Source: Armatimonadetes bacterium 55-13 (GTDB lineage Bacteria > Armatimonadota > Fimbriimonadia > Fimbriimonadales > Fimbriimonadaceae). From it: a stretch of 64,000 bases of DNA. Position 1 is the first letter of the stretch, and each line of letters opens with the position of its first letter. The stretch spans positions 514,150 to 578,149 of the forward strand of contig MKRX01000006.1 of assembly GCA_001898035.1 (NCBI GenBank), in the 5' to 3' direction. The notes below the pieces were generated by a model. That model made no database searches and was not told the origin of the DNA. It worked only from the letters and a program-made list of their open reading frames with translations. This document shows positions 37,476-55,598 of this stretch, piece after piece. Made by a program: the position numbers and the translations under genes.

Positions 37476-38819
37476 TTATTTGAATAAGTTAATCGCCAAG
37501 GCCGCCGTCTTCGAAATAGCGTTAGCTGGCCCCAGAAGAGTATCTAGCTCGTCGAAGTCGGCGAGCTGTTGCCGACGTACAGCATCATTGTTTAGCAACT
37601 CCGCAAGAGCTTTCTGCACCTGTTCTTTGGTAACGCCCTCCGCTTCGGCCAATTCGGGAACGCTCATGCGGTTGAGAATGATGTTGGGAAGGGCGATGAA
37701 CTGCGGGCGCTTCATTCTCAAGAGCTTTACTTCTCGCTGCATCGCCTTGGAAATCTGATAGACCACGATCATAGGGCAACGGCACAGCGCCGCCTCCAGC
37801 GTCGCCGTGCCAGAACAGATTATTCCCACCTTGGCTCGCTTCAGGACGCCATACGTGTCCCCTACGGTAAAGATGTCAGAACGCCCAGGCGCTAACCGAT
37901 TCCACTCTTTCCTAAACTCTTGCACGTCCAAACTAGGGGCAAGACCAAATTCCAGGGGATCTGTGGTTATTCCTTGAACGGAAGCCGCAATGAGCGGCAA
38001 GTTCATCTCCAATTCATGCTGCCGACTCCCTGGCAGAACAGCAATCGTCTTGCGCTCCTGCTCCCCAGATTGGTTTTCGGCAATCAACTGCTTGATAGGG
38101 TGGCCGAACCAATAAGCATCCGCGCCCATTTTCGTCAGCGTATCAGCGGACCAGGGGAACGGGGTAACGACAGCGTCCGAGATAATAGGAATGTCCTTAC
38201 CTTGCCGGTCCCGCCTCCAAGATCCCGGAGGCACGAAATAAAGAACTTTCCAACCATTCTTCTTGGCAAACCTGGCAAGGCGAATATTGGCAAAACCAAA
38301 ATCGATCGGAATAAACAGTCCACTGGGCCCTTTCCGAAGATGCTTTTTTGTACGTATCAAACTCGACCAAACGCGAACAAACACCCGGACGGCTTGGGCG
38401 ATTGATATGGCCCCCCACTTCGAGGAGTCTGCGTAGAGTTGGACGCCTGCCGCGCGCATTCGCGCGCCGCCGATTCCCTCAAAGTGGGGCGAAAACGTTT
38501 CTGACACTCTTGATCGCACGGAACGCACGACATCTTCGTTGGTCATCCACCGACTGATTTCATCTTCAGGAATGCTGACGCCAAACTCGGATTCCAAGAC
38601 AAGGAGGAATTCAAGGTCTTCCATCGAATCGACGTCCCAACATCTCCGGAATGAGCCCTCAGGAGTAAAGGGTTCCAGTGGCCCCAACTCTCTGTGCATG
38701 ATCTCGAAGACTCTTTTCCGAACGTCAACCCGAGCTTCGCTCATACGCGTGAGATTCTGGACCAGGGAAGCGCCGTAGGCGTCTCCAGAAGCTTCACCTG
38801 CGGAAATGAAGACGCGCAT
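37476..38819 (-). CDS. lpxB: Lipid-A-disaccharide synthase with an inserted acyl-carrier-protein-like domain
   Basis: LpxB joins UDP-2,3-diacylglucosamine and lipid X into the lipid A disaccharide at the inner membrane. The GT-B fold starts as usual with FISAGEASGDAYGASLVQNL, but the expected next strand (FEGIGGARMRAAGVQLY) comes only at residue 113. Between them, residues about 28-110 read like an acyl carrier protein: VRKRVFEIMHREL, FTPEGSFRRCWDVDSMEDLE (DSM, Ser65, in place of DSL), then FLLVLESEFGVSIPEDEISR and TNEDVVRSV. The rest is a normal LpxB: IPIDFGFANIRLARFAK, YFVPPGSWRR, FGHPIKQLI, VLPGSRQHELEMNLPLIAAS, GTATLEAALCRCPMIVVYQ. At 447 residues it exceeds the usual 370-390 by about the size of the insert. 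Confidence 0.88.
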   Translation of the reverse strand: MRVFISAGEASGDAYGASLVQNLTRMSEARVDVRKRVFEIMHRELGPLEPFTPEGSFRRCWDVDSMEDLEFLLVLESEFGVSIPEDEISRWMTNEDVVRSVRSRVSETFSPHFEGIGGARMRAAGVQLYADSSKWGAISIAQAVRVFVRVWSSLIRTKKHLRKGPSGLFIPIDFGFANIRLARFAKKNGWKVLYFVPPGSWRRDRQGKDIPIISDAVVTPFPWSADTLTKMGADAYWFGHPIKQLIAENQSGEQERKTIAVLPGSRQHELEMNLPLIAASVQGITTDPLEFGLAPSLDVQEFRKEWNRLAPGRSDIFTVGDTYGVLKRAKVGIICSGTATLEAALCRCPMIVVYQISKAMQREVKLLRMKRPQFIALPNIILNRMSVPELAEAEGVTKEQVQKALAELLNNDAVRRQQLADFDELDTLLGPANAISKTAALAINLFK

Positions 38820-38830
38820 AACGCAGTTGA

Positions 38831-39619
38831 CTAAGGCTGGTCGCCACGCCCGTTCTTGCCCTTAAACCGGCGTAATTCAAAATCGATAAGCGTTTGCACT
38901 TCTGGAGTCACCGCAACCTCTCTCTTTACGGTTTCAATGGCATTTGTAAGCCCGAGTTGAGATTTGTACAGAAGCTTGCACGCTTTATGAAGCGCCATTC
39001 GCCCCTCCGAGGAGATTCCGTATCGCCGCAAACCAACCGCGTTGATATCGCGAACTTCACAATCGCGACCTTCCACAATCATAAAGGGGGGTACGTCACG
39101 AGTAATTCCGCTCATGCCCCCAACCATCGAGACTTTGCCTACGCGGACCCACTGATGAAGCCCGACCATACCTCCGAGGGTCGCCAACTCTTCGATGGTG
39201 CAATGCCCCGAAACTCCGACGCTGTTCGCCATGGTCACGCCATCTTCAACGACAACGTTATGCCCTAGATGCACGAACGCCATAAAATAGCAATGATTGC
39301 CAACCCTGGTCGACTGTCCTTCACCGGTAGCACGATGAATGGTTACGTATTCCCGAAAGAAATTGTCGTCTCCAATCGTGAGATACGTCGGTTCGCCTTT
39401 ATATTTCCGATCTTGAGGATCACCCCCAATGATCGATCCTTGTCCGAAGTAGTTTCGCTCGCCAATGGTGGTCCCGCCCTTGATCGTAACGTGAGAGTCA
39501 AGTTTGGTGCCTGCGCCAAGGATCACACCCGCCTGCACATCGCAGAAGGGGCCGACGATAACGTCATCGGCCAATTCGGCCATCGGATCAACGACAGACA
39601 GAGGATGAATCTGGGGCAA
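38831..39619 (-). CDS. lpxA: Acyl-ACP--UDP-N-acetylglucosamine O-acyltransferase LpxA
   Basis: First step of lipid A synthesis: transfers a 3-hydroxyacyl chain from acyl carrier protein to UDP-GlcNAc. At 262 residues it is full length. The left-handed beta-helix hexapeptides run from IHPLSVVDPMAELADDVIVG to about residue 185. The family motifs GGDPQDRKYKGE, FREYVTIHRATG, and VHLGHNVVVEDGVTMANSVG (with the catalytic His) are present, plus the helical C-terminal domain. It sits between fabZ and lpxB. Confidence 0.95.
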   Translation of the reverse strand: MPQIHPLSVVDPMAELADDVIVGPFCDVQAGVILGAGTKLDSHVTIKGGTTIGERNYFGQGSIIGGDPQDRKYKGEPTYLTIGDDNFFREYVTIHRATGEGQSTRVGNHCYFMAFVHLGHNVVVEDGVTMANSVGVSGHCTIEELATLGGMVGLHQWVRVGKVSMVGGMSGITRDVPPFMIVEGRDCEVRDINAVGLRRYGISSEGRMALHKACKLLYKSQLGLTNAIETVKREVAVTPEVQTLIDFELRRFKGKNGRGDQP

Positions 39620-40060
39620 TTAGCTATCCCTGTCCAGTAATTTAAAGGTCATTTCCATTTGACAAGCAAGCTCGCCATCGACCGTGCCAATGGCCTTGAG
39701 ACGTCCAATGGTTCCTCGAATCCACTCCAGCGTTACATCCGATTGGAGTTGGTCGCCGGGGACCACCATTCGCTTGAACTTCACGTTGTCGATAGCGCCA
39801 ATAACCGGAATCATTCCCTTATATTGAGGCTCACTCAGCAACATAATGCAACCAGCTTGTGCAAGAGCTTCGACAATCAAAACTCCAGGCATGATGGGCT
39901 TCCCAGGGTAATGCCCTTGGAAGAAGGGTTCATTGATGGATACGTTCTTTATTCCAATGCAGTGCTTGCCCGGCTCCATCTCCAAAATCCGATCAACGAG
40001 AAGCATCGGATATCTGTGGGGCAAGCTTTTAAATATCTCTTCGATATGGATCAAGGGCAC
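39620..40060 (-). CDS. fabZ: 3-hydroxyacyl-ACP dehydratase FabZ
   Basis: Dehydrates 3-hydroxyacyl-ACP in fatty-acid elongation and competes with LpxA for the same substrate. At 146 residues it has the hotdog-fold catalytic His in LPHRYPMLLVDRILEMEPG and the Glu in GVLIVEALAQAGCIML, plus NEPFFQGHYPGKPIMPG. GTG start at 40060 with GAGG seven bases upstream. It abuts lpxA (1-base gap) in the fabZ-lpxA-lpxB order seen in many diderm bacteria. No lpxC lies upstream here. Confidence 0.94.
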   Translation of the reverse strand: MPLIHIEEIFKSLPHRYPMLLVDRILEMEPGKHCIGIKNVSINEPFFQGHYPGKPIMPGVLIVEALAQAGCIMLLSEPQYKGMIPVIGAIDNVKFKRMVVPGDQLQSDVTLEWIRGTIGRLKAIGTVDGELACQMEMTFKLLDRDS

Positions 40061-44559: not shown

Positions 44560-46089
44560 CTAGTGTCGGAAATGTCGGACGGAGGTCAAAACCATCGCGA
44601 TGCCGAGTTCGTCGGCGGCGGCAATGACATCGGCATCCTTCTTGCTTCCGCCGGGTTGGACCACAGCAGCGATGCCAGCGGCGGCGGCGGTTTGGATGCT
44701 GTCAGGGAATGGGAAGAAGGCGTCACTGGCGAGAACGGCGCCTTGGGCTCCTTCACCGGCTTGCTCAAGGGCGAGGCGGACGGATTGGACGCGGTTCATT
44801 TGGCCAGCGCCGACGCCAAGGAGTCGATTTTCCGTACCGACGACGATGGCATTGGACTTCACGTGCGGAATGATGCTCCATTGGAACTTGAGAGCGGCCA
44901 TCTGCTCGGGAGTGGGAGCTTTCTTTGTCACAACCTTCCATTCAATTCCCGGATCTTCATCGGAATCCTGGATGATGGCGCCACCTCGGATGGTCTTGAC
45001 CATGAGAGTTGCTTTCTCGGGAGGAAGCGGGGCGGCGAGGAGGCGGACGTCTTGGCCCCAGCCAGATCGGTTCTTGAAGATTTCGACGGCTTCTTCGGTA
45101 AAGCTCGTGCCGATGACGACTTCGAGGAAGTTGCCTTTCTCGGTCATGGCGTTGGCGGCGTCGGCGTCGATTTCGGTGTTGAAGGCGGCGATGCCTCCGA
45201 AGGCGGAGATGGGGTCGCTTTGGCGGGCGAGGCGGTAGCTATCGCCTAGGGTCTGGCCATGGGCGGCGCCACAGGGGTTGCCGTGTTTGATGATGGCGCA
45301 GGCTCCCTTCGGGAGGTCGGCTACCAGTTCCCAGGCGCCGTCGGCGTCGTTGAGATTGTTGTAGCTGAGTTCCTTGCCCCAGAGCTGTTTGGCTTGAGCG
45401 ATTCCGGGGGCAGCGAGGGGGTCTGCGTAGAGGGCGCCGGTCTGGTGGGGGTTCTCCCCGTAGCGAAACCCCATGATCAAACGGTAACCCATAGAGAGGG
45501 TTTCGGAGAGGGGGTTCTCGTTTGCCGCTTCGGTAAGGTAGCGGCTGATCATCGAATCGTAAAAGGCGGTGTGGCGGAAGGCTTTGGCGGCGAGTCGGCG
45601 TTTCAGTTCTTGATCGTCTTCCGTCGCCTTTTCGAGAACGGCGGGATAGTCGGCGGGGTCCACGACGACGTAGAGATTCGGGTGGTTTTTGGCGGCGGCG
45701 CGGATCATGGCAGGGCCGCCGATGTCGATGGACTCGATGGCCTCGTGGAATTCGTGGGGGCCGGTGACGGTTTTTTCGAAGGCGTAGAGGTTGACGCAGA
45801 CGACGGTGATCGGTTCGATGCCGGCTTCTGCCATGGCTTGCCGGTGAGAATCGAGTCGAATGTCACCCAAGAGTCCGCCGTGCACGAGGGGATGGAGCGT
45901 CTTGAGGCGGCCATCCATCATTTCAGGGAATCCGGTGACTTCGCTCACGTCTTTGACGGTGAGGCCGGCATCCCGAAGCGCCTTGGCGGTTCCGCCGGTG
46001 CTGACCAGTTCGAATCCCTTGGCGGCGAGCCCCTTGGCGAAGTCTACGACACCGGATTTATCGGTTACGGAAAGCAGGGCGCGCTTCAT
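44560..46089 (-). CDS. purH: Bifunctional purine biosynthesis protein PurH
   Basis: Catalyses the last two steps to IMP: AICAR formyltransferase and IMP cyclohydrolase. At 509 residues it is full length. The N-terminal cyclohydrolase has LLSVTDKSGVVDFAKGLAAK, TGGTAKALRDAGL and GRLKTLHPLVHGGLL. The transformylase has RYGENPHQTGALY, KELSYNNLNDADGAWELVAD, AIIKHGNPCGAAHGQ and SDAFFPFPDSIQTAAAAGI. The ATG overlaps the stop of the upstream gene (ATGA), so the two are coupled. The stretch 44,560-47,700 looks visibly richer in G+C than the flagellar region. Confidence 0.96.
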   Translation of the reverse strand: MKRALLSVTDKSGVVDFAKGLAAKGFELVSTGGTAKALRDAGLTVKDVSEVTGFPEMMDGRLKTLHPLVHGGLLGDIRLDSHRQAMAEAGIEPITVVCVNLYAFEKTVTGPHEFHEAIESIDIGGPAMIRAAAKNHPNLYVVVDPADYPAVLEKATEDDQELKRRLAAKAFRHTAFYDSMISRYLTEAANENPLSETLSMGYRLIMGFRYGENPHQTGALYADPLAAPGIAQAKQLWGKELSYNNLNDADGAWELVADLPKGACAIIKHGNPCGAAHGQTLGDSYRLARQSDPISAFGGIAAFNTEIDADAANAMTEKGNFLEVVIGTSFTEEAVEIFKNRSGWGQDVRLLAAPLPPEKATLMVKTIRGGAIIQDSDEDPGIEWKVVTKKAPTPEQMAALKFQWSIIPHVKSNAIVVGTENRLLGVGAGQMNRVQSVRLALEQAGEGAQGAVLASDAFFPFPDSIQTAAAAGIAAVVQPGGSKKDADVIAAADELGIAMVLTSVRHFRH

Positions 46090-47672
46090 CTGCCACCTCC
46101 CATTGCGGGGCCGCCGATGGGCGGGGTGGCGCCGGGGTCTCCGGGGCCGAGAGGGGGTTCGACGGGGTCGGCGACATCGACCTTGAGGGTCTTGGATACC
46201 GATTTGCCATTGGCGTCAATGGCTTTGATGGTGAACGTGGTGGTCTTATCAATCATGAATTCTTTGCTGCCGGGTGCATTGGGATCGTCCGGTACGGTGG
46301 TATCGACGCCGTTGGTGATTTCGACGCGAGCGGCGTTAGAGACCTGCCAACTCACGGTGGCGTATCCGCCGTTCGAGTCGAACTTATTTGGGCTGATGGA
46401 GAAGGCGAGGATGACGACTTTCGCCTTGTCAATCACCGTCACCGTGACCTTATCGCGCGCCACCGATTTGTCCTTGCCGGTCGCCACGATTTCATAGGTA
46501 AAGGTCCCTTCGGTGGAAGGTTGGACGACCACGGAGTTAAGGCTGAGCGGGAGCTTTTGGCCGGTGGGCTGGAGATACGCTTCCTCAGCATTTTCGACGG
46601 TGTAGTTCAGTTCCACCGTTTCCCCGAGGTTGATGCTTCGGCGTTTGGCCTTGATGCTCACAACGGGTTTGGGGACGGGAGGCGGCTCATCCACATGGAG
46701 GACCGAGGTTACGCCCTCACTCGGTTTCTGGTCCCGGAAGGCCTGCGCTTCGATGGTGAGATCGCCGGTTCTTGCGGGAACGTAGTCGATGCCCTGATCG
46801 GTTCCTGGCCCATCGTAGGCACTTTCTCCGTCCACTTTGATCAACACCCGCGTGGAATTTTGGGTGTGCCACCCGATCTTGACGGATTCGCCACGGTAGA
46901 CGGAGCTTCGGCTCAGATTGAGGCTAATCGAGGGTGGTTTGGGAAGGAGCGCGAACCAGGCGATCCCGACCAAGAAGACCAGGATCAGCGAGATCAGGGT
47001 CGCCGGGGTTAGCAGGGGCCGCTGCTCGATCTGCGCCTGGGACGAGGTCATGACGTTCGGGAGTTCCACGCTGCGCGCGCTGACCGAAAATCCGAAGAGG
47101 CGGGAGCTGGACAAAAACGGGGTACTGGAAGGCGCGACTTCCAATTCGACCGACTTTTGCTGACCGGGACTGACGCTGAGCTGTTCATGCTCGAAGTCGT
47201 AGGCAAGGGCCTCATCCGGGTCGTTTCCAAACAGTTGGAGGGTGTGATCGGTGTTTCCCAGATTCAGGATGGTGACCGTATAGGTGTTCTGTTTCCTTCC
47301 TGGCGAGTAGAAACCCTTTTTCGGGCTGATTTCGGTGGTCAGGTAGTGGAACGGCTTAACCTGGACGACCCCTTGAGCGGTACGGGCGTCGCCTGAGTTG
47401 AGCGAGCGCACCTTGACGACAAAGGGGTAATTCCCGGCCAGGCTCTCGCTGGTGCGGGGGACCTTAAAGAAGACCTTTTCCGTGTGAAGTTCGCCTGAAT
47501 CGACGACGAAGACGGCCTCCGGCACGGCCGTCCATTCGGCATCAATGCCCTCGATTTGGAGCTCATAGCGATCCGTCTCGGTCCCTTTGTTCGAGACTTC
47601 GATGGAGAGGGGCACGGTGGCGCCGGCCTCTACCGCGATCAGGTCGGTGGATAGTCGGACGCTGAAGCTCAT
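46086..47672 (-). CDS. Membrane-anchored protein with tandem Ig-like/beta domains
   Basis: Function not recognised. At 528 residues it has an N-terminal pair of NEW3/CARDB-like beta domains (VPLSIEVSNKGTETDRYELQ, and NTYTVTILNLGNTDHTLQLF), a central membrane segment (about 225-245, LISLILVFLVGIAWFALLP), then three further Ig-like units (YRGESVKIGWHTQNSTRVLI, NLGETVELNYTVENAEEAYL, SNGGYATVSWQVSNAARVEI). The C-terminal tail is Gly/Pro-rich. There is no signal peptide, so the side on which each half lies is uncertain. It is translationally coupled to purH, an odd partner. The nearest upstream feature is the CRISPR array. Confidence 0.72.
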   Translation of the reverse strand: MSFSVRLSTDLIAVEAGATVPLSIEVSNKGTETDRYELQIEGIDAEWTAVPEAVFVVDSGELHTEKVFFKVPRTSESLAGNYPFVVKVRSLNSGDARTAQGVVQVKPFHYLTTEISPKKGFYSPGRKQNTYTVTILNLGNTDHTLQLFGNDPDEALAYDFEHEQLSVSPGQQKSVELEVAPSSTPFLSSSRLFGFSVSARSVELPNVMTSSQAQIEQRPLLTPATLISLILVFLVGIAWFALLPKPPSISLNLSRSSVYRGESVKIGWHTQNSTRVLIKVDGESAYDGPGTDQGIDYVPARTGDLTIEAQAFRDQKPSEGVTSVLHVDEPPPVPKPVVSIKAKRRSINLGETVELNYTVENAEEAYLQPTGQKLPLSLNSVVVQPSTEGTFTYEIVATGKDKSVARDKVTVTVIDKAKVVILAFSISPNKFDSNGGYATVSWQVSNAARVEITNGVDTTVPDDPNAPGSKEFMIDKTTTFTIKAIDANGKSVSKTLKVDVADPVEPPLGPGDPGATPPIGGPAMGGGR

Positions 47673-53033: not shown

Positions 53034-55598
53034 CTATATCACAATCCTTCTCAGCGCGGCACGAGAATTGTCGTTCTCAGCGATAAATTCGTAAACCGGG
53101 ATCTTGCAACGGATCTCAAAGGTCGGGTTCAACTTGACATGTGCTTCCGCCATCATCGCGGTGGTGAAACCTTTGCCTTTGCCGTCGTTGACTAGTGGCC
53201 GAAGGGCAATGTTTAGGGCTCCCACAAAATCAGCATCCAACACAACGCCTTGAGAGAAGGACTTTCCTTTAAATTCCTTTTGATAGGGATCCCAGAAAAG
53301 TTCACTTCCCCAACTGAACCTTCTGGGTTGTGCAGGGTCCAAGTCTTCCGGCTGAACCACAAACCGACTTCTTCCGTAGGCCTTTCCTTCTTCATTTCTG
53401 AGTTTCATCCATCTGCCCTGCCGATAGATAGTCGAATGACTTTCTATTTCATCGTCCTGCGGACCTTCATATCCCTCGCCAATCTTGCGGCCAATCGCCA
53501 TGCTTTTATCTTGTTTCTTGGCCTTCTCCACTTCATCGCGCTTGGCCCACCAGCCAAACGGAGAAACTTGACTTGTATAGCGTGCGGCTTCCCAACGAAC
53601 ACCATCCACCCGGTTCGATCGGGAGTTGTAGAAGTAGCCTCTTTTCCGCATCTGATAGATCAATGCCTCTTCCATGGAAGCGAGATGTTTAACTCGGTTA
53701 TTTCTTTTTAAGTTAAGAGCACCTAACTCAAGGTTCTCCAACACGAAGCAGTAGTTTCCTTCCCCAAATCTCTCGCTGCAATTCTGAACAAGTTTTGCAA
53801 CAGCCTCAACCGTCTCTGTCTTGCCCAAGCTGCGATCTTTCCTACGAGCTTTGGCAAGCGCAACCACATAGCGGTTCCTTTCTTGGGCACTCTTGGAGAG
53901 GTCCCGCATGCGCTGAAAGTACGCGATCTCTTGCCGAATGGCTCGCCACTCCCGCTTTCGACCCGGTAGAGGGATGTCGTCGATTACGGCTTTCTCTTCA
54001 GTATCTACAACAACCGCTCGTAGCACGTAGTTGATGCCCCGATCAATGCCGATAAGGTATCGACACTGCGGTTTGCACCAGGGGGCGTTACTGTTCTGTA
54101 TTGTCTTATTAGAGTCATAGAATTTGAAGACAGGTCGGATGAACAGCCGAGGATGCTTTCCTTCTGGGTCGACGATGACAAACTGCGTTGTGTTATGAAT
54201 GCATCGCCGTTCCAAAGGGGCCTCGGCCACGTGATTTTCGACGTGTTTCGTATACCATCGAAGAAAGGCATGCTTAAATCGTAGAGGCATCAAGGCACAG
54301 TCCTTACCCTCGGACTTGGTCTTGGAAGTAATTTGCCGATCCGAGAGAAGGGAGGTGCCATCTTGATACATATATCGCTGCACGTCAATTTTCGGCATGC
54401 CATCTAATGGGATGGCGAGAGCCAAACCGTTCTCCGTTCGGTGACCATCCCAAACGAGGGAAGCCTGCCTTTTCCTGGTAATGGTCCCTTGGAGATACGA
54501 GTGGCCAGCCCACCTGCTACGTTCCTGCTCCAACCTTACACGTGGTTTGGCTTGGCCTAGCTCCTTTTGCAGAGCCGTCACTCGGTGGCGTTTCTTGTCG
54601 TCAACCTTCGCAATCGTGTATCGATCCTTGTCCTCCAGATCGAGGAACTCAAGCACAGAGTCGACAACTGATTCAAAGTTCGCGGACGGTTTCTCCGATG
54701 TCAAATAGGGAAACTGGGGATTCGTGTGTTTTCCTGAATTTGCCGCAGAATGGAATGCTTTTAAGCCACTCCGCAGGCGACGATCCAAAGTGTCTTTATC
54801 TACGCCCTTAGGCGCCGAGTCCTTGATCGACTTCGCGATTTGATCCACCCAATTCTTTTGGGCTAGGAGCTTCACCGTCCGCCACGCTTTTTCATCGCGA
54901 ATGAGTTCCTCATCGCTCAAACTCCCCCAGGGGTCAATATTCTGGAGGAAGCCTCTCATGATTTCCGGCTCTCTTTGCAGCAAAGCTCCTGCTAGCAGGA
55001 CTTCTCTGGCGGCCTCAATGCTGCCAAACTTGGTCACAGCCCATGTTCGGACAACCGAACGCTCGTCTTTCTGAACGAATCGCATCAACGCCTTTATGAC
55101 TCGATGGGCATTAAGCATAGGCAGCTCAACTTCGATGAAAGGCGCTGAAGTCCAAAATCTGCCTTCTTGATCCGATTCGGACTTTTGATCCGATTTACCG
55201 AATCTATTGATCAATCGTGGGAGATTGATTCCAGGTACGGGCTGGGGAATCACATAGCGACTCTTTTTGGGCCGGGGCCCTTTCTTCTCATCAGGTGGAG
55301 ACGGTAACTCTGTGGATGGCAAAGAAAGTTCTTTCCTATGTTTCGTCTTACCTGGCTTTGGCACATACGACTCGTGCCCTTCGTTCTGGTAAAGATTTCG
55401 GTACAGATCGTTTCGTTCAACTTCAATTTTATGAAGAAGAAAGTGCAGCGATTGAAAGTCACGCCGCCCGCGCTCCGACTCCAGGTGACGACGAATCTTC
55501 TCTTCGCGCTGTCGCAACCTTTGAAGTCGCTTCTCTCCAAGTTCGCGCAAGCGAATATCTCTGGGTGACAGAGCGACCGTCGATGTCTTTTTGGGCAT
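53034..55598 (-). CDS. cas12: Compact type V effector, Cas12l/Cas-pi-like, lacking a zinc ribbon
   Basis: Predicted RNA-guided DNA nuclease of the Cas12 class, 854 residues, small for an effector that travels with cas1, cas2 and cas4. The split RuvC nuclease is complete: Asp519 in YLIGIDRGINYVL, Glu621 in YCFVLENLELGAL and Asp788/Asp790 in GVVLDADFVGALNIAL. A basic, helical N-terminus (residues 1-70) and a Pro/Lys-rich linker (80-125) come first. In the region where Cas12 and TnpB have a CxxC...CxxC ribbon after 'ysSq', this protein reads ARYTSQVSPFGWWAKRDEVE with no cysteine; only scattered Cys occur elsewhere. Size, adjacent tracrRNA candidate and probable phylum suggest Cas12l (Cas-pi), but this comes from memory of the family and was not checked by search. 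Start is ATG 55598. Confidence 0.9.
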   Translation of the reverse strand: MPKKTSTVALSPRDIRLRELGEKRLQRLRQREEKIRRHLESERGRRDFQSLHFLLHKIEVERNDLYRNLYQNEGHESYVPKPGKTKHRKELSLPSTELPSPPDEKKGPRPKKSRYVIPQPVPGINLPRLINRFGKSDQKSESDQEGRFWTSAPFIEVELPMLNAHRVIKALMRFVQKDERSVVRTWAVTKFGSIEAAREVLLAGALLQREPEIMRGFLQNIDPWGSLSDEELIRDEKAWRTVKLLAQKNWVDQIAKSIKDSAPKGVDKDTLDRRLRSGLKAFHSAANSGKHTNPQFPYLTSEKPSANFESVVDSVLEFLDLEDKDRYTIAKVDDKKRHRVTALQKELGQAKPRVRLEQERSRWAGHSYLQGTITRKRQASLVWDGHRTENGLALAIPLDGMPKIDVQRYMYQDGTSLLSDRQITSKTKSEGKDCALMPLRFKHAFLRWYTKHVENHVAEAPLERRCIHNTTQFVIVDPEGKHPRLFIRPVFKFYDSNKTIQNSNAPWCKPQCRYLIGIDRGINYVLRAVVVDTEEKAVIDDIPLPGRKREWRAIRQEIAYFQRMRDLSKSAQERNRYVVALAKARRKDRSLGKTETVEAVAKLVQNCSERFGEGNYCFVLENLELGALNLKRNNRVKHLASMEEALIYQMRKRGYFYNSRSNRVDGVRWEAARYTSQVSPFGWWAKRDEVEKAKKQDKSMAIGRKIGEGYEGPQDDEIESHSTIYRQGRWMKLRNEEGKAYGRSRFVVQPEDLDPAQPRRFSWGSELFWDPYQKEFKGKSFSQGVVLDADFVGALNIALRPLVNDGKGKGFTTAMMAEAHVKLNPTFEIRCKIPVYEFIAENDNSRAALRRIVI

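Follow-up and report, generated by a model that had tools for sequence, protein, structure and literature searches.

A predicted acyl carrier protein domain within the LpxB of a Fimbriimonadaceae bacterium

The lipid-A-disaccharide synthase (LpxB) encoded in the 64,000-nucleotide stretch of Armatimonadetes bacterium 55-13 DNA analyzed here, referred to as the window, is interrupted near its N-terminus by 89 residues that, as judged from sequence comparisons and a structural model, are an acyl carrier protein (ACP) domain. LpxB, which is essential and widely conserved, couples the two halves of lipid A to each other. Homologous domains occupy the identical position in six related LpxBs, and the serine expected to bear phosphopantetheine has been lost from three of the seven. 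No description of an ACP domain inside LpxB was found in the literature searched. Both component families are well known; what is unusual is that the host is LpxB, that the serine has been lost more than once, and that a single loop has taken up inserts of different kinds. By a narrow judgment, the captured domain is held to be for the most part a structural addition that the enzyme tolerates, with docking, if it occurs at all, confined to particular lineages.

The LpxB host and its inserted domain

The lpxB gene, which encodes a protein of 447 residues, lies on the minus strand at positions 37476-38819 of the window. Immediately upstream, on the same strand, are lpxA (38831-39619; PF13720, E 2.4e-21, together with hexapeptide repeats) and fabZ (39620-40060; PF07977, E 1.3e-31), both of which encode ACP-using enzymes and had been named as neighbors in an earlier sequence-only reading of the DNA. 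A search of the host genome, which comprises 27 contigs and is 99% complete, identified the lpxB product as the sole LpxB. Also present are LpxC and LpxK in addition to the LpxA of the window, AcpS, and one copy of a normal, separate acpP. LpxD is probable, given that its profile score is below the cut-off but the gene adjoins lpxC. Two other minus-strand reading frames in the window were noted: one of 854 codons (53034-55598) that matched nothing in Pfam at E 1e-5, and one of 528 codons (46086-47672) for which the sole match was an Ig-like FixG_C domain near its start.

The match of the window LpxB to PF02684 is strong (E 5.4e-48; 164.2 bits with a gathering cut-off of 22.6). The active site of the Escherichia coli enzyme is formed by Glu 15, Ser 17, Asp 98, Pro 198, Gly 199, Ser 200, Arg 201, Thr 277, and Glu 281 (PMC5785501). 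The equivalent residues in the window LpxB, namely Glu 9, Ser 11, Asp 173, Pro 263, Gly 264, Ser 265, Arg 266, Thr 338, and Glu 342, are all retained and are invariant across a ten-member LpxB alignment. On sequence grounds the LpxB core is thus intact despite the insert, as the earlier reading had proposed. The protein scores 141 bits with TIGR00215 and therefore misses the NCBIfam equivalog cut-off of 190. This cut-off is likewise missed by insert-free relatives (153 and 133 bits) and by the window LpxB from which the insert has been deleted (153.5 bits), and hence the shortfall reflects family-wide divergence rather than an effect of the insert.

The E. coli enzyme is both the best sequence match in the Protein Data Bank (E 1.7e-18) and the best Foldseek match of the window LpxB. 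The two share the GT-B fold and all of the active site residues listed above (PDB 5W8N, 5W8S, and 5W8X; PMC5785501), but where the window LpxB has its 89-residue domain the E. coli enzyme has a linker of ∼7 residues. The Foldseek matches listed for the complete model were all whole-length GT-B-like folds. Ranked directly after E. coli LpxB was a Tetrahymena respiratory complex I subunit (8b6f_A0, 8gym_T1, and 7tgh_T1; TM ∼0.6), which suggests that ciliate complex I subunits may include a predicted LpxB-like glycosyltransferase fold.

On the basis of an alignment of relatives, the portion of LpxB ahead of the insert extends to residue 23 (38751-38819, minus strand) and contains strand 1, the AGEASGD loop, and helix 1. 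The insert itself, delineated from Thr 24 to His 112 (38484-38750, minus strand), separates helix 1 from strand 2 of the N-terminal domain and is in frame, as had been stated, with SLVQNL preceding it and FEGIGG resuming at residue 113. Its earlier assignment as an ACP is borne out by several searches. With PF00550 (PP-binding) the insert alone scores 23.8 bits, above the gathering cut-off of 20.8, whereas within the whole protein the score is 20.3 bits. An NCBIfam ACP model matches it with E 7e-8, and a search of the Protein Data Bank returned the ACP 2ehs with E 1.9e-8, all of the matches listed being ACPs. Against a profile built from the AcpP sequences of relatives, the insert scores 37.1 bits versus a maximum of 7.6 for 479 scored shuffles.

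A model of the window LpxB was built with AlphaFold2 using 51 LpxB sequences. The mean pLDDT is 91.9, and blocks within the insert fall at about 74-91. The predicted helices of the insert are formed by residues 33-44, 66-79, 85-88, and 94-108, and adopt the four-helix topology of an ACP, the outcome anticipated in the earlier reading. When Ser 65 is set equal to Ser 36 of E. coli ACP, these become helices 4-15, 37-50, 56-59, and 65-79, which coincide with the helices of E. coli ACP. Ser 65 (codon TCG, 38625-38627, minus strand) lies in the sequence Asp 64-Ser 65-Met 66 at the start of helix II, the position of the phosphopantetheine serine, and the motif is equivalent to the Asp-Ser-Leu site, in agreement with what had been suggested. 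Helix II is acidic, and the counterparts of E. coli Glu 41, Glu 47, Phe 50, and Ile 54 are kept. From these residues, Ser 65 and its surroundings look modifiable in the window copy.

Distribution and divergence of the insert

Eighty-five genomes of the Fimbriimonadaceae (Armatimonadota) were searched, and an LpxB match was found in 79. Approximately 65 of the LpxBs in the family have a short linker at the insertion point, and 15 have 60-90 extra residues exactly there. The bimodal distribution of linker lengths marks this site as a length hotspot. ACP-type inserts occur at the identical site in seven of about 80 family LpxBs, those of genomes G000 (the window), G001, G002, G064, G018, G006, and G035; the search for further examples that the earlier reading had called for thus yielded six. 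The seven score 17.5-45 bits with the AcpP profile, each exceeding every shuffle of its own sequence, and the five tested with the NCBIfam ACP models all match with E below 0.005. When 291 genomes of the phylum were searched with the N-terminal half plus the insert, strong full-length matches were restricted to the same seven and G067, the score of the latter being approximately what the LpxB ends alone would yield. No ACP insert beyond the seven was found among these 291 genomes, and none outside the family among 80 loci obtained from a scan of genome contigs.

Eight further LpxBs carry an insert at the same position with no ACP signal (0 bits or less with the AcpP profile). The NCBIfam ACP models gave no ACP match for four of these eight, and hhalign comparisons of the non-ACP inserts with ACP gave a probability of at most about 1%; that every insert at this site is an ACP is therefore not supported. 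Six of them, in genera g16, g10, and g7 (genomes G008, G017, G080, G081, G082, and G090), resemble one another. They belong to another clade, are 73-88 residues long, and in most cases finish with a conserved GLIDxxRLRxE-like end; the loci carrying this insert include L121:4001-5302 (CP075364), L129, and L139. One of these six was modeled as a helical bundle (residues 31-46, 53-64, 68-71, and 78-90). At two loci, L033 (G061) and L041 (G067), the same loop holds long inserts of no recognizable family. That of G061 may derive from an ACP that has decayed until it is no longer recognizable, since G061 adjoins ACP carriers in the LpxB tree.

Among the seven homologous inserts the serine is kept in four, as DSM in the window (G000) and as DSL in G001, G018, and G006. 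In G002, which belongs to the same genus as the window, the site reads DVDDLE, with Asp-Asp in place of Asp-Ser, and the serine is likewise lost from G035 (LSPLD, Ser-Pro) and G064 (DFGS-ED, Gly-Ser and then the deletion of one residue); where exactly the last two motifs fall depends on the alignment. Helix IV is absent from the G001 insert. Glu 70 is the only residue invariant within the insert across all seven. Judging from these alignments, conservation of the serine is evidently not maintained by selection across the ACP-type inserts.

The insert diverges far faster than either the LpxB core or AcpP. Pairwise identities range over 16-35% for the insert, 48-75% for the core, and 73-96% for AcpP. 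The corresponding values are 34, 66, and 89% for G000-G002, 25, 63, and 96% for G000-G001, and 16, 48, and 73% for G000-G006. For G006-G035, the sole pair with an unsaturated synonymous distance, dN/dS is 0.22 (0.13-0.35) for the core and 0.56 (95% range 0.27-1.03) for the insert; this last range, from one species pair, spans both weak selection and none.

A tree of the inserts, dominated by very long branches, groups G000, G002, and G064 (95/99) and, weakly, G018, G006, and G035 (80/81). The inserts of the first group share Trp-Asp before the serine site and a tryptophan at the start of the loop between helices III and IV. In the LpxB tree the ACP carriers are scattered, and a single clade is mildly rejected (p-AU 0.034). 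As they do not form one clade, repeated losses or gains are called for: either the insert was acquired once, long ago, and lost many times, or it was acquired several times at the same position. A recent duplication of the acpP of the same genome is rejected, in that the insert is only 29% identical to the host's own AcpP.

Possible roles of the domain

In the explanation we prefer, a copy of an acpP gene would have been inserted in frame into the N-terminal Rossmann domain, in the loop that leads from helix 1 to strand 2. By the logic of the Rossmann fold, this loop should lie on the side of the domain that faces away from the substrate cleft, which is formed at the C-termini of the strands. 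In E. coli LpxB, membrane contact is made by the loop at residues 62-71 and the helix that follows (PMC5785501), a segment different from that bearing the insert. A folded domain in this loop could thus be carried without spoiling catalysis, and synthesis of the lipid A disaccharide would presumably continue with the domain hanging from the enzyme. The ACP fold would be kept because a misfolded insert would harm the sole LpxB; the fold would then be under selection, while phosphopantetheine attachment would not be maintained across the lineage. Given that close relatives have lost the attachment site, the domain probably persists more as a folded appendage than as a carrier in use. The length hotspot, the loss of the serine in three inserts and of helix IV in one, the fast divergence, and the separate, normal acpP together tip the balance, if only just, toward this explanation. 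Set against it is the retention of Asp-Ser-Leu/Met in four of the seven inserts, including that of the window. In addition, helix II of the G001 insert is very AcpP-like despite the lost helix IV, so that this face could be selected, and the features common to the G000, G002, and G064 inserts suggest some constraint.

That the fold persists where the serine does not is also what would be expected if the domain had a docking or allosteric function independent of phosphopantetheine, connecting LpxB with LpxA, FabZ, or the membrane. Helix II, the usual interaction face of ACPs, is the best-preserved part of the inserts in G001 and G006, and there is a precedent by analogy in E. coli glucan (MDO) synthesis, for which the prosthetic group of ACP is dispensable according to the statement in PMC6158461. 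This role is nevertheless unlikely, albeit credible, for no surface is conserved across all seven inserts beyond Glu 70, the domain is patchy in its occurrence, and unrelated inserts occupy the same site.

The earlier reading had supposed that the insert could tether acyl chains. As a working carrier, Ser 65 would be loaded with phosphopantetheine by AcpS, and the tethered acyl-ACP would serve LpxA or LpxD or report the supply of fatty acids to LpxB. The Asp-Ser-Met site, the acidic helix II with its retained E. coli-equivalent residues, the lipid A and AcpS genes of the host, and the adjacency of lpxA and fabZ are all consistent with such a role. It is regarded as improbable, however, given the loss of the serine from an LpxB of the same genus and from two others, the fast divergence of the insert, the existence of a separate AcpP, and the absence of the domain from most LpxBs of the family. 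To our knowledge, moreover, LpxB does not use ACP-bound substrates in the established pathway. A general acyl-carrier role for the inserts is not supported, in view of the serine losses, the missing helix IV of G001, and a divergence exceeding that of LpxB and AcpP alike. Slightly more doubtful still is the proposal that this LpxB has a working carrier of its own, holo-ACP at Ser 65 coupling the fatty acid supply or LpxA to disaccharide synthesis, with the serine-less sister species retaining docking only. Finally, although many of the relatives are metagenome assemblies, an assembly or binning artifact or a misread reading frame is so improbable as to be rejected, with site and frame identical in seven independent assemblies, a GC content of 0.52 for the insert versus 0.54 for the core, one LpxB in a 99% complete genome of 27 contigs, and inserts at this site in single-contig genomes such as CP075364 as well.

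Relation to known systems

The insert resembles AcpP (PF00550) in its fold, helix lengths, and Asp-Ser motif, but is embedded in a glycosyltransferase, diverges quickly, and does not conserve its serine among homologs. Of known ACPs, the partner of the E. coli MDO synthase is similar in that an ACP serves a glycosyltransferase reaction and does so independently of phosphopantetheine (Therisod and Kennedy 1987, as cited in PMC6158461); in that system the ACP is a separate protein, the enzyme is another one, and there is no fusion. AcpXL, the dedicated lipid A ACP of rhizobia (PMC11901934), is likewise a specialized ACP tied to lipid A, yet it is a free-standing carrier of a very long fatty acid rather than an insert. 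Extra sequence is also found in the long, Chlamydia-type LpxB (NCBIfam NF002173, 610 residues). The match to that profile begins near position 230-250, which places its additional part at the N-terminus, as opposed to an ACP after helix 1.

If the domain described here is functional, it would provide a physical link between fatty acid synthesis and lipid A assembly. If it is not, it still illustrates clearly how an enzyme can capture, in nature, a carrier domain to which it is unrelated, with the attachment site lost in parallel lineages and the fold kept.
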